Assembly (NCBI GenBank): GCA_021107705.1
Contig: JAIOSJ010000269.1
Coordinates: 1 to 34,112, forward strand
Direction: 5' to 3'
DNA: 34,112 nucleotides
Source of the DNA: Thermoanaerobaculales bacterium
GTDB taxonomy: Bacteria > Acidobacteriota > Thermoanaerobaculia > Thermoanaerobaculales > Sulfomarinibacteraceae
The position numbers were made by a program, and so were the translations under genes. Below, in pieces: positions 11,416 through 15,984 of this stretch; the first letter of the stretch is position 1, and every line of letters starts with the position of its first letter. The notes beneath the pieces are model-generated. The model was not told where the DNA came from. It searched no databases and worked only from the letters and a program-made list of their open reading frames with translations.

Positions 11416-11586
11416 CTACAGAAGCTCCCGCAACCTGGCATAACCTGATCGGCTGACCGGAATCTGGACGCCGTCTGCGAGGATGGCAATCCGGCTGTCC
11501 TTGGCGTAGAGCTCGATACGAGAGATCCGGTCGATGTTGACAAGATAGGACCGATGGACTCGGATGAAGCGATCCGGATCGAGCCT
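11416..11586 (-). pseudogene. LytTR DNA-binding domain remnant
   Basis: 56 codons on the minus strand encode the C-terminal end of a LytTR output domain: RFIRVHRSYLVNIDRIS, then IELYAKDSRIAILADG and IPVSRSGYARLRELL, ending in TAG at 11418-11416. The domain is missing its first half and there is no receiver domain or start codon. It follows the stop codon of the LiaF-like gene immediately and in the same frame, so a deletion seems to have joined the two. LytTR regulators of this kind usually follow a histidine kinase and a LiaF-like gene. Confidence 0.8.
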
Positions 11587-12336
11587 CTAGTGCTTGATCT
11601 CGACACCGCCCATGATGGCGAATCCGCGAACGATCAAAACCTTCCCGCCCTGAGACGCGAGACCCCGGGTCTTGTCCTCGAACGCACCCATGATTGCCGT
11701 CCCGCGGACTTGCACCTCCCAGTCATCCGGCACCCTGAGCTCAACTCCGCCCCAAAAGGCAAAGGTGTGAATCTCTGCAGGTTCTCCCGCCGAACCGCAG
11801 TCGGAGAGGTCGATCTCACAGCCACCGAGCATGGCCGTTGCGTCGCCGCCCTGAAAATCATCACAGGCGATGTGCCGCTGGACTCCACCCATCACTGCGG
11901 TGGCATCGAAGAAGCTGGCGCTCTCCGGATCGACCTGGCGCCGACCGCGAGTGATGGCACGCCACAACAACTGGGCGCCGAGAAGGACCAACAGCAGGGG
12001 CCATAGCTCCCAGACGTTGAAAGTCCAAAAGTCCATTGTGTTGAGCAGGAGCAGGGTGCCAACCACCAGCCACAGCAGACCCGCGCCGAGCCTGCGGTCA
12101 CGTCCGGGCTGGATCAGGTGGGATAAACCAAGCAAAATCAACAATGCCGGCCAATAGTCGAACAGGTTTTCCACGTCCATGATGTCGAGATTGTCAAGAG
12201 TGAGCAAGATGCCGACGGCCAGAACCCCAAGGCCGAGGATCGCCTTGCCGACGGGCCAACCTCGTGAGCAGCTGGATCTGCCCTCATTTTGAAGGTCGGT
12301 GCCGTTTCGGTAACTGCGATGTGAAGTGTCACGCAT
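11587..12336 (-). CDS. LiaF-like membrane protein (DUF5668 with cell-wall-stress C-terminal domain)
   Basis: A 249-residue protein. Four membrane segments occupy residues ~30-125 (AILGLGVLAVGILLTL, YWPALLILLGLSHLI, LGAGLLWLVVGTLLLL, LWPLLLVLLGAQLLW), matching the LiaI-LiaF-like transmembrane region. The C-terminal ~110 residues are a beta-rich domain with repeated G-G-x-E/A-M-G turns (TAVMGGVQ, TAMLGGCEIDL, TAIMGAFEDK, FAIMGGVEIKH). Such proteins inhibit or sense with LiaS/LytS-type kinases in the envelope stress response. A GTG start 24 bases upstream is in frame, but AAAGGAGA is well placed for the ATG at 12336. The expected kinase is absent, and only the tail of its regulator remains. Confidence 0.85.
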   Translation of the reverse strand: MRDTSHRSYRNGTDLQNEGRSSCSRGWPVGKAILGLGVLAVGILLTLDNLDIMDVENLFDYWPALLILLGLSHLIQPGRDRRLGAGLLWLVVGTLLLLNTMDFWTFNVWELWPLLLVLLGAQLLWRAITRGRRQVDPESASFFDATAVMGGVQRHIACDDFQGGDATAMLGGCEIDLSDCGSAGEPAEIHTFAFWGGVELRVPDDWEVQVRGTAIMGAFEDKTRGLASQGGKVLIVRGFAIMGGVEIKH

Positions 12337-12420
12337 ATCGTATCTCCTTTCACCACTCACAATAGGTCAAGGGCCGAAGCAAAGCACGCCGATTTCGGCG
12401 AATGGCGGTCAGACCCTGGT

Positions 12421-12480: not shown

Positions 12481-14028
12481 TTACCATCGAAACTCGGTAG
12501 AGCGGGTCTCGGCGTACAGCCGCTGAAGGATCGACAAGGCAACGTCCACGTCAAGGAAGGGAATCCGGATCCGGTGGCCGGTGGCGCCGGCCCCGGCGGT
12601 GTCCACAGCCACCGTTGCCATGCGTTTCCGGTGGTCGAACGGTGTTTGGCGAATCGAGACGGTTTGCATGTTAACGAAACGCACCACGCTGATCTGGCGG
12701 CTGAGCCAGCCGCTTCGAAAGTAGATGGCGTGCTCGGTCAGCGCGTAGCCAGCATGGCGTACCCATTGACGGGCGATCAGCCAGGCCATGGTCAACACTA
12801 CCAACGGCAGCCAGAGTGCGTGCCATCCGCTCAGCGGAATCAGAGAGAACGTGAGCACCGCCGCGAGGGCGACCGTAATCGGCATGACGGCAAGAGCCAC
12901 TCTTTTGACGATCCGCCGCGTCGCCCTTGCCTCGATTGGCTTCCATCCGACCGCTTCGATGTCGATCTCTGGGAGTATGTGGTGCACCAGCCCGGTGGCC
13001 TGACCGGTCTCGATGATCGGAGCCAGCCACTGGCGCGTAGTGTTGACACCGGAAGCGGCCAGCTGACCACTCAAGTCAGAATCGGCAGTGGAGGCGCCGG
13101 CAGTCTCAACGTCGATCGATGTGCGGCCGAAGCAGCGATGCAGCAATGTGGAGGTGATAGTCACAAGCTGGATCCGGTGCACCGGAATGAGCGACGAGAC
13201 CAAGGTCAGCAGGCCATACTCCGCTCGAAGCTCTTCGTTCTTCTGGCGCAGCGTGAAGCCTCGGTACCGCACCAGGTACCAGGCGATGGACAGCAGCCGG
13301 AGGAGAACGAGGAAGAACACGATGAAAGCCAGGCCCAGTAGTGCTCTGCCGGCCAATGAGCCAGAATCGAATAGCCAGGCGGCCCACTCAGGTGCCTTGG
13401 CGTGGACACCTGCGTAGGCGCGCATCCAGTCCTGGTCCCACCAGTTTGTCTGTGAGAAGACGCCCATCCCCGCCGCGACGACGATGAACCCTCGGTTGCT
13501 GATCAGGCCCAAACGCACGAGTTCGAGGTCCGGTACCTGCAGCAATGGGGCGTCTGCCGCTCGTGCCTCGGGTGAGTCCGTTGCGATGGCCTGTTCCTCG
13601 CCCAGCGAGTAGCGCCTAAGTTCGTCGGCTGCCTCCAGTGACAGCACCCGCAGCAGCGCTTCGGGCTTGCCGCCGGCTGCGGTTTCGATCCGCGCCGTGG
13701 TCACCCCCAGCAAGCGGTGGATCGGATTGCGCACCAGTGCAACGTTGTGGATCCGCTCGTAGGAGATGTGGCGCACGTTCTTGGTCAGCAGTCCGTCGCG
13801 AACCACCAGTTCACTGTCGGTAAACCGATAGCTGTAGACCTTCTGCCTGATAAACGCGTACACGAGGGCCGGCACGATCAGAAGCAGCGAAAGGAAATGC
13901 AGATGGGTCAGCAGGAATCCACCCGAGGCGACGACGGCGCCTGCCGCCGGAATGAGCAGTGCTCTCATCGTGCCCGCGGCGATGAACATCCACGACCAGC
14001 TGTTCAGCTGTCGGGCTTCAGTCTGCAT
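12481..14028 (-). CDS. Bacterial PH-domain (YdbT-like) membrane protein
   Basis: A 515-residue membrane protein built of repeated membrane-flanked bPH2 (DUF304) units. Hydrophobic pairs lie at ~15-60, ~165-240 and ~350-410, each followed by a PH-like beta domain: YSYRFTDSELVVRDGLL with HISYERIHNV, then GFTLRQKNEELRAEYGLL, then GYALTEHAIYFRSGWLSRQ with VRFVNMQTVS. This matches B. subtilis YdbT, which acts with YdbS; that pair has been tied to resistance to certain antimicrobial peptides. The gene overlaps the upstream YdbS-like gene, so the two are cotranscribed. The start may be ATG 14028 or GTG 14037; neither has a clear ribosome site, as expected for coupled translation. Confidence 0.85.
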   Translation of the reverse strand: MQTEARQLNSWSWMFIAAGTMRALLIPAAGAVVASGGFLLTHLHFLSLLLIVPALVYAFIRQKVYSYRFTDSELVVRDGLLTKNVRHISYERIHNVALVRNPIHRLLGVTTARIETAAGGKPEALLRVLSLEAADELRRYSLGEEQAIATDSPEARAADAPLLQVPDLELVRLGLISNRGFIVVAAGMGVFSQTNWWDQDWMRAYAGVHAKAPEWAAWLFDSGSLAGRALLGLAFIVFFLVLLRLLSIAWYLVRYRGFTLRQKNEELRAEYGLLTLVSSLIPVHRIQLVTITSTLLHRCFGRTSIDVETAGASTADSDLSGQLAASGVNTTRQWLAPIIETGQATGLVHHILPEIDIEAVGWKPIEARATRRIVKRVALAVMPITVALAAVLTFSLIPLSGWHALWLPLVVLTMAWLIARQWVRHAGYALTEHAIYFRSGWLSRQISVVRFVNMQTVSIRQTPFDHRKRMATVAVDTAGAGATGHRIRIPFLDVDVALSILQRLYAETRSTEFRW

Positions 14029-15070
14029 CGGTCGCACGGTCGGGTCGGAGGTGGTCGCACAGGCGTACCGCTACAGTGTGTTCGAGTCCCGCGAGAGAAA
14101 TTGACGCCCCCGCGGTGCCGGCGGTGTGCACCGTGAGCGTGGCCAGATCGAATCGTCTCTGCAAGGGCCCCTGAGTGAAGTCGGTGTGCTGGACCCGCGA
14201 GATCGGAATCCAAATCACCGTGCGCCAGAAGACGCCGCGACGGATGCGCAATCCACCCTCGTCAACCAGGTATCGCAAGCGCTTGTGATGCACCGCGGGC
14301 CACTTGTAGGCGAACGACAAAGCCGTCGTCGCAAGCACCAGCCAGACCCCGAACAGTGCGAGATAGACTGCGCTCGGAAGGCCTCCCACGACCCAGCCGA
14401 CGGTGATGAGGATCAGCGGAACCAGTGCAATGAGGGACGTAACCGAAAGTCCGGTGAAGCGGGCGACTCTTACCGAGCGCGGGTCAACGTGGTGCTCCTC
14501 GCCGTCGACCATCGACGGCAGTTCGGGGGGCTCGGAATCGGGCGACTCTGGTCTCGCTTCGACGGCCGGGTCAGGTTTGCTGATTTGTTCGCGATCAGCT
14601 ACTGCTGCTCCTCCGGCCTCGGCGGTCGAGGACGCTCGTCGGACCTGATTCAGGAAGCTCGATAGACTCTGTTGAATAAAATACTCCCAACCAACTATGC
14701 CTCTTTCCCGGGTGAACTCCGGAATGTCAGAGGAGAAGGACTCAATTCCAGTGGAGGTCAAGACCAGCTTCGTACCTTCGTCGATCTTCGACAGCTTCCA
14801 TTCGGTGGAACCAAGGCCGGGAAAGCCTTCGTAACGCCATGTGTACGTGATGCTCTCGACCGGCACGACCTCGGTGACTTTCCACTGGTGGCGGAAGATC
14901 CGCCCACTGACCTCGATGTCGAACTCCGTCTCGAATCCTACCTCGGGACGAAAATCTTCGATCTGTTCGAAGTACCACTGCCGCATCAGGCTCGAAGTGG
15001 TTATCGCCTGCCACACCGCCTCCGGCTGCACTGAAAATGACTGTTCGACGACGATCGGCTCTGAACTCAC
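14018..15070 (-). CDS. SRPBCC (AHSA1-like) domain fused to a YdbS-like PH-domain membrane protein
   Basis: A 350-residue two-part protein. Residues 1-145 are an SRPBCC/AHSA1 lipid-cavity domain (VEQSFSVQPEAVWQAITTS, LMRQWYF, VTEVVPVESITYTWRY, GSTEWKLSKIDEGTKL). An acidic Pro/Glu linker (~150-190) follows. Residues ~195-350 are two membrane spans and a bPH2 domain (YLVDEGGLRIRRGVFW, IPISRVQHTDFTQGPLQRRF, LTVHTAGTAGASISLAGL), typical of YdbS. The start is GTG at 15070 with AGGGGAG 7 bases upstream. It overlaps the YdbT-like gene. YdbS proteins are normally about 160 residues, so the added SRPBCC part is unusual and could bind a lipid or hydrophobic ligand (inference). Confidence 0.83.
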   Translation of the reverse strand: MSSEPIVVEQSFSVQPEAVWQAITTSSLMRQWYFEQIEDFRPEVGFETEFDIEVSGRIFRHQWKVTEVVPVESITYTWRYEGFPGLGSTEWKLSKIDEGTKLVLTSTGIESFSSDIPEFTRERGIVGWEYFIQQSLSSFLNQVRRASSTAEAGGAAVADREQISKPDPAVEARPESPDSEPPELPSMVDGEEHHVDPRSVRVARFTGLSVTSLIALVPLILITVGWVVGGLPSAVYLALFGVWLVLATTALSFAYKWPAVHHKRLRYLVDEGGLRIRRGVFWRTVIWIPISRVQHTDFTQGPLQRRFDLATLTVHTAGTAGASISLAGLEHTVAVRLCDHLRPDRATDAD

Positions 15071-15492
15071 GGCTTGACTCCCCTCGAGAGACTCTCCCGA
15101 TCATAGATCAGGGGATAGGAATTTCCTTTTCGAACACCACGACCCTACCACGACCTGAACCTCCCTTGTCCCGCCGCCTAATGGTGCCATAATGGTGCCA
15201 CATAATGGTGCCCCTTTAGGATCTTAGGAAGCTTGAGAATACTCTCCCCCCTCGGTGACTGGCCACCTGATCTGAAGCAGCTAAACGAACTTCCCAACTT
15301 CCTATAAGCACCGCTATGGCACCGCTACGGTGCATTTCCTCAGGAGGCAACAGAGTACGGAAGGGGAGAAGGCCCGCCTCTTGAGGAAAAGACCTCGGCT
15401 TCCCGTCTTGGGGGTCTTGGGCGCTCTCGGGGTTGGGTGACAGCACACAGGGTAAGCCGGCCTGTAACCAGGTATGGGACAATAGAAGGACC
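15071..15492. other. Non-coding stretch upstream of the nucleotidyltransferase module
   Basis: Apart from the triple ATAATGGTGCC repeat (15179-15212) and a related CTATGGCACCGCTACGGTGC segment near 15311, nothing gene-like is seen. It should hold divergent promoters for the SRPBCC-PH gene and the nucleotidyltransferase gene. Confidence 0.5.
15179..15212 (+). repeat. Tandem ATAATGGTGCC repeat (three units)
   Basis: TAATGGTGCC, ATAATGGTGCC and, after CA, ATAATGGTGCC again. The units are spaced 10-13 bases apart. A nearby inverted GGCACC element suggests a REP-like or transposon-end remnant. Confidence 0.6.
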
Positions 15493-15984
15493 ATGGTGAC
15501 CGACCACAAACCTGTCGTTGACGAAGACCGCCTCAGGGCCGTGTTTCTGGCACTCGCAGACCAAGGGGTCGAGTATGTGGTTTTTGGGGCTGTGGCGCTC
15601 GGCCTTCACGGGCTCGCGAGAGCCACTGGTGATCTGGACCTGTTCATTGATCCGACTTCGGCCAACGTGGAAAGACTGAAATCGGCGCTGAAGTCCGTCT
15701 TCAACGATCCCAGCATCGACGACATTTCTGCCGAGGATCTTTGCGGCGACTATCCCGCGGTCCGGTATATGCCGCCGGAGGGGTTTGGTTTTGACATTCT
15801 GACTCGACTCGGCGAGGCCTTCGCCTTTTCTGATCTCGATGGTGAGCTGAAGGAATTCGATGGTGTGCCTGTGAGGGTGGTTACGCCGAGGACTCTGTGG
15901 TTGATGAAGAGAGACACGGTTCGGCAGGTTGATCGCTTTGACGCGAGCCTTTTGGCCGAAAAATTCGGCTTTGAGGAGGGATGA
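15493..15984 (+). CDS. Stand-alone nucleotidyltransferase (AbiEii/DUF6036-like)
   Basis: A 163-residue protein of the polymerase-beta nucleotidyltransferase fold. The motif is FGAVALGLHG at 31-40, then ATGDLDLFID, giving D47 and D49 as metal-binding residues, with a third acidic residue at D101 (GFGFDIL). The C-terminal VRVVTPRTLWLMKRDT is typical of AbiEii/MNT-like proteins. The frame is open further upstream, but AGAAGGA lies just before ATG 15493 / GTG 15496, so this start is preferred. The stop overlaps the next gene's ATG (ATGA). Proteins of this type act as toxins or antitoxins that modify RNA, tRNA ends or partner proteins; which applies here is unknown. Confidence 0.82.
   Translation: MVTDHKPVVDEDRLRAVFLALADQGVEYVVFGAVALGLHGLARATGDLDLFIDPTSANVERLKSALKSVFNDPSIDDISAEDLCGDYPAVRYMPPEGFGFDILTRLGEAFAFSDLDGELKEFDGVPVRVVTPRTLWLMKRDTVRQVDRFDASLLAEKFGFEEG

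Follow-up and report, generated by a model that had tools for sequence, protein, structure and literature searches.

The window, that is, the whole 34,112-nt stretch of DNA analyzed here, encodes a protein in which a single reading frame links two entire units, an SRPBCC domain of the AHSA1 type and a YdbS part with its two membrane helices and bPH_2 domain. As judged from sequence comparison, this in-frame joining is a genuine rearrangement of known parts, so far solitary, and represents a new domain architecture within a known family. The fusion of an SRPBCC domain to a YdbS-type PH protein, proposed in the original prediction, was borne out by the single open frame and by the Pfam matches to AHSA1 and bPH_2, and the two parts very probably reside in one protein. 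The gene is organized as follows, with the basis of each assignment in brackets.

14018..15070, minus strand: SRPBCC-YdbS fusion gene (open frame of 350 codons, GTG start).
14636..15070, minus strand: SRPBCC (AHSA1-type) domain, residues 1–145 (Pfam, stand-alone relatives and fold comparison).
14603..14644, minus strand: residues 143–156, putative former intergenic or leader stretch, now translated (ends and starts of relatives).
14609..14614, minus strand: GGAGGA at codons 153–154, probably left over from the Shine-Dalgarno sequence of ydbS (spacing as in genome G057).
14600..14602, minus strand: GTA at codon 157, presumed to have been the ydbS start (comparison with locus L045).
14498..14602, minus strand: acidic disordered linker, residues 157–191 (tails of YdbS relatives and pLDDT).
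14279..14479, minus strand: two predicted transmembrane helices, residues 198–229 and 233–264 (hydropathy and model helices).
14078..14281, minus strand: bPH_2 domain, residues 264–331 (Pfam, E 9.2e-16).

The GTG start of the fusion gene is preceded at 7 nt by the purine-rich sequence GAGGGGAG. AHSA1 and bPH_2 domains were called with the curated cut-offs of Pfam, and none of the NCBIfam profiles matched the fusion protein above a cut-off. The predicted structure has a mean pLDDT of 90 and a pTM of 0.51; the SRPBCC domain and the membrane-bPH_2 part are both well predicted and are separated by a disordered tether, and the pTM value means that the orientation of the domains to each other is not fixed by the model.

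The SRPBCC half matched AHSA1 at residues 14–132 (E 9e-14; 52.2 bits against a cut-off of 22.1), and Polyketide_cyc2 scored barely above its cut-off on the N-terminal half (27.8 versus 27.4 bits). Stand-alone SRPBCC relatives are 42–54% identical to the window protein across residues 1–149. The lists of fold matches from Foldseek and VIA-align were filled by this half of the protein, and its helix-grip fold was evident from the VIA-align match to 3q63 (Z 18.0, rmsd 2.3, 135 aligned) and the Foldseek match to 3q64 (E 6.7e-9); an Aha1 structure, 8z3h, was also among the VIA-align matches (Z 14.6, rmsd 3.0, 130 aligned). To assess conservation, the window protein was aligned with 12 SRPBCC and 16 YdbS proteins that stand alone, hand-picked from the relatives found, with the interrupted locus L035 and several more distant ones left out. 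Identity reaches at least 90% in 25 columns of the SRPBCC relatives and in 27 of the YdbS relatives, of which the window protein keeps 24 and 26, respectively, indicating that the SRPBCC and bPH_2 matches are not due to chance.

The bPH_2 domain scored 58.3 bits against a curated cut-off of 22. As is characteristic of YdbS, it is preceded by two membrane helices according to hydropathy and the model, with the hydropathy maximum spanning residues 202–256. The turn between the helices is poor in charges, and basic residues flank the helix pair on both sides (judged by eye); from this topology, a cytosolic location is predicted for both the SRPBCC and the bPH_2 domains. Among stand-alone YdbS proteins, the nearest are the two copies of genome G057, which belongs to the same class, with 58% and 51% identity; they begin with MDDREQ or MDDREK.

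The acidic linker had been regarded as an added part, and this view was not upheld: stand-alone YdbS relatives carry a comparable acidic or proline-rich tail before the first helix, and the linker is, by this comparison, the ancestral disordered N-tail of this YdbS subfamily. Within it, the pLDDT of the fusion model falls below 50 at residues 160–174. Codon bias is weaker over a stretch of 44 linker codons (0.083 bits per codon) than in the two halves (0.122 and 0.235).

The junction retains traces of two formerly separate genes. The ends of stand-alone SRPBCC relatives fall near window residue 142 and YdbS relatives begin at window codon 157, and codons 143–156 are best read as a gap between genes that became coding, given these ends, the ribosome motif lying in register and the start codon turned into GTA. 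In the model, a helix covers residues 121–159, and residues 143–156 are thus predicted to extend the last (C-terminal) SRPBCC helix. The nearest YdbS relative (L045) starts with ATGGATGATCGCGAACA, and the window protein reads GTAGCTGATCGCGAACA at this position. At the DNA level, GGAG-ACTCG-ATG-GAT-GATCGCGAACA of this G057 locus corresponds to GGAG-CAGCA-GTA-GCT-GATCGCGAACA in the window, and the distance from GGAG to GATCGCG is 11 nt in both and 12 nt in locus L044. Only 3.7% of random window positions have a GGAG core 5–14 nt upstream, and 1.5% have GGAGG or AGGAG. The fusion frame is open, and the two other frames have stop codons right at the junction. An internal stop or start that would split the domains into different proteins, named in the original prediction as evidence that would contradict it, was looked for: there is no stop, and an internal YdbS start that existed once is, by comparison with L045, now lost. 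The translated intergenic stretch together with the lost ydbS start argues against two separate proteins.

Two neighboring genes on the same strand were identified downstream of the fusion gene.

12481..14028, minus strand: ydbT-like partner gene with three bPH_2 domains (open frame and Pfam).
11587..12360, minus strand: LiaF-like gene with a LiaI-LiaF-like TM region (Pfam).

The window thus also has the YdbT neighbor typical of YdbS, with three bPH_2 domains and the same orientation. The expected overlap of the YdbT-like partner gene with the fusion gene was found to be 11 nt, with three bPH_2 stretches recognized by Pfam. This figure holds for a start at ATG 14028, which is the likely ydbT start because the proteins of relatives begin with MQTE or MESD; a start at GTG 14037 was dropped for this one. 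The ydbT product is 71% identical to its G057 homologue.

The LiaF-like gene is also present in the two family members G016 (92% identical) and G006 (84%), both without ydbST, and it was rejected as an old operon member on this ground, with the reservation that these are draft contigs; it is probably an older neighbor, separate from the ydbST block. The DNA of G006 and G016 matches the window up to 12428 and then diverges, with an M1 peptidase-like gene (recognized by eye from its translation) after the divergence point in G006. Homology ending here at an empty site suggests, as far as draft contigs tell, that the ydbST block was either inserted at this position or lost differentially. A LiaFSR/PSP-type envelope stress operon was not found at this place in the window, where the LiaF-like gene is present but lacks an adjacent two-component system. 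In G016 and G006, a LytS-type kinase and a LytTR-type response regulator (by eye) adjoin the LiaF-like gene; about 1.65 kb with kinase and regulator is missing from the window, and all that is left of the regulator gene is a 171-nt stretch at 11416–11585, which is 86–87% identical to the 3′ end of the gene in G016 and G006. On the other side of the fusion gene, upstream and on the opposite strand, an AbiEii-like nucleotidyltransferase frame lies at 15433–15984 (plus strand; E 2e-5, a match that narrowly passes the Pfam cut-off). Between the two, at 15173–15212, a TAATGGTGCC-like unit occurs in three tandem copies with spacings of 11 and 13.

The distribution of the fusion was analyzed with the whole protein in overlapping genome sets, of which the phylum sets are samples, and with single alignments that could miss a diverged second half. 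At the level of domain architecture, the predicted fusion was confirmed in the window, and no second one emerged among the relatives, phyla and plasmids searched. None was found in 99 relatives (40 genomes matched, E 1e-3) or in 396 genomes of the phylum (61 matched, E 1e-6), where the matches, the window's own aside, split into SRPBCC-only and YdbS-only proteins. The phylum to which an Ignavibacteria genome belongs was sampled with 395 genomes, of which 146 matched at E 1e-8, and none of the matches listed covers both halves. There was also none in the 10 genomes behind the SRPBCC loci or in 11 contig loci, and a plasmid search gave 10 records, none with 80% coverage and none a fusion. When the SRPBCC half alone was compared with 148 genomes of the class, five matched: the window's own, three distant ones (28–34%) and G004.

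Several matches that crossed the boundary were rejected as fusions. The one in G057 (C48:62673, 129–349) runs into upstream DNA, and the ydbS there starts with MDDREK; those in G204, G269, G274 and G644 contain stop codons; and those in G523 (4–154) and G763 (6–156) have long frames that reach no bPH_2 part. A match in G498 (C48:30199) covers 110–337 at 29% identity with one TGA inside.

Adjacency of the two parts was likewise confined to the window: with two HMMs in 82 loci, several of them overlapping and with short flanks, the window's own locus was the only one with both domains, and no SRPBCC gene was found next to ydbST elsewhere. A ydbT gene was found in 7 of the 99 genomes, the window's own included, and ydbST genes in none of the 19 other family members searched, of which G006 and G016 show the empty site. 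In G004, of the same family, the start of an SRPBCC gene (C114:5192–5311; L009, L046) shows 73% identity over residues 2–41 with GGAGG upstream; it ends abruptly into unrelated sequence and is either a pseudogene or a contig misjoin. A second, different locus of the window's own genome (G000 C277:5286–6231) contains two bPH_2-like matches, and several family members carry such loci.

On the sequences compared, the window is not alone in having another gene joined in frame to the YdbS tail. In G303 (L065:221–1573), a ydbS lies in frame behind a complete domain of HemD, the enzyme uroporphyrinogen-III synthase, with HEM4 at 22–251 and bPH_2 at 363–441 (Pfam). The presumed ydbS start ATG is kept at the boundary with GGAAG upstream, and YdbS may for this reason still be made separately there. 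This HemD-YdbS joining calls for caution in inferring function from one case.

We envisage that a stand-alone SRPBCC gene came to sit directly 5′ of a ydbST pair and that an in-frame connection to ydbS would have arisen when the SRPBCC stop was lost or the frame shifted slightly. Translation would then have extended across the former gap between the genes, including the ribosome site of ydbS, and the ydbS start would have decayed to GTA. The predicted product is one inner-membrane protein of 350 residues, about 38 kDa as calculated from this length. Its N-terminal SRPBCC domain would be cytosolic and linked by a flexible tether to two membrane helices, followed by a bPH_2 domain that would likewise be cytosolic. 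The protein would be made together with YdbT via the overlapping genes. The SRPBCC family binds hydrophobic ligands, and the pocket of this domain may bind a hydrophobic or amphipathic molecule at the face of the inner membrane; the bound molecule might be handed to the YdbST complex or signaled to the bPH_2 domains. We tentatively prefer this reading as a whole, in which two genes were joined and the pocket binds a ligand for YdbST or reports to it, as a possibility not far short of an even chance; in it we infer the topology, the pocket, the ligand and the hand-over or coupling. Delivery or reporting of a ligand to YdbST is suggested by the precedents of the sigma-W regulon, DdE/DdF and AhfA described below. 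It is rather unlikely, and so offered as speculation, that a lipid- or peptide-binding SRPBCC domain is covalently wired into YdbST as a one-piece shuttle-transporter or a ligand-gated version, with the YdbS N-tail as a natural docking point for cargo proteins.

The main rival, which is a real possibility and nearly as likely as the ligand reading, is a neutral fusion by stop loss, in which each half continues its separate work and the tether contributes nothing by itself. That a single genome is known to carry the fusion favors neutrality and counts against a ligand, and a functional link gains no independent support from the 82 loci, none of which, the window's own aside, pairs SRPBCC with ydbST; moreover, the second in-frame joining, that of the unrelated enzyme HemD in G303, suggests that the YdbS N-tail may simply tolerate fusions. 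The weaker codon bias of the linker, the pTM of 0.51 and the distant relationship of the one pair with known transport also weigh against the ligand reading. Against neutrality, both halves are intact, and YdbS would now depend on the fusion because its own start codon has degenerated without an evident substitute. Additional production of YdbS from an internal start, which would yield two proteins, is improbable. From codon 105 to codon 227 the frame offers a single start, ATG 187, which does lie directly before the first membrane helix, and the old ribosome site is partly kept, but no Shine-Dalgarno-like sequence was seen just 5′ of this ATG, and the remaining GGAGGA faces GTA, which as a rule is not used as a bacterial start codon.

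We consider it still less probable that two loci were misjoined in the metagenome assembly. The genome is in 444 contigs, and the truncated SRPBCC gene of G004 ends at an abrupt break, but a junction in frame between complete domains, with the ribosome site in register and the start codon changed, is unexpected for a random misjoin. A role as a co-chaperone of the Aha1 type, recruiting an Hsp90-like chaperone to YdbST, would also be allowed by the presence of Aha1 structures among the fold matches. Other SRPBCC proteins match better, however, as the values for 3q63 and 8z3h given above indicate, and to our knowledge Aha1 activity is in general not a property of bacterial members; we regard this as very improbable.

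The natural fusion to a putative ligand-binding domain is a "Rosetta stone" hint that the substrate of YdbST is small, hydrophobic or amphipathic and reaches the complex from the cytosolic side. The hint is weak, being a single case. YdbST-like pairs are widespread and are linked to envelope stress and bacteriocin export, and the SRPBCC pocket lends itself to screening in the form of a soluble domain.

Among the papers searched, none joins the SRPBCC/AHSA1 and bPH_2/YdbS families. In the passages seen of three reports, DUF304 is not named in a phage shock review (PMC11237479), SHOCT is reported with bPH_2 and SRPBCC is not named (PMC3581485), and DUF304 is named and YdbS is not (PMC2817789).

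With the YdbS/YdbT pair (COG3402/COG3428; bPH_2, PF03703), the window shares two helices and one bPH_2 domain in YdbS and an overlapping YdbT gene with three bPH_2 domains; it differs from the stand-alone relatives by the SRPBCC domain that precedes the usual N-tail of its YdbS. Conversely, the stand-alone AHSA1-type SRPBCC proteins of Ignavibacteria, Bacteroidota and others have the same complete domain as the window protein but are single-domain proteins without a membrane part. According to the parts of the literature consulted, ydbST is part of the B. subtilis sigma-W regulon (PMC3498285), and DdE/DdF, relatives of YdbS/YdbT, are required for export of the bacteriocin EntDD14 (PMC8657885). 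DdE and DdF are 17–18% identical to YdbS and YdbT (PMC8657885), and transport by YdbST relatives is, in the source as seen, known for a distant pair only. The DdE/DdF pair of enterocin DD14 has the same number of membrane helices and bPH_2 domains as the window pair, but it lacks an SRPBCC domain and is dedicated to a bacteriocin cluster (PMC8657885), none of which was noticed in the ORF list of the window. AhfA, a soluble SRPBCC protein of Corynebacterium, is described in the passages seen as a proposed lipid shuttle to membrane transporters; it has an SRPBCC domain in common with the window protein, whereas AhfA belongs to the DUF2505 family and is soluble and unfused (PMC9671496).
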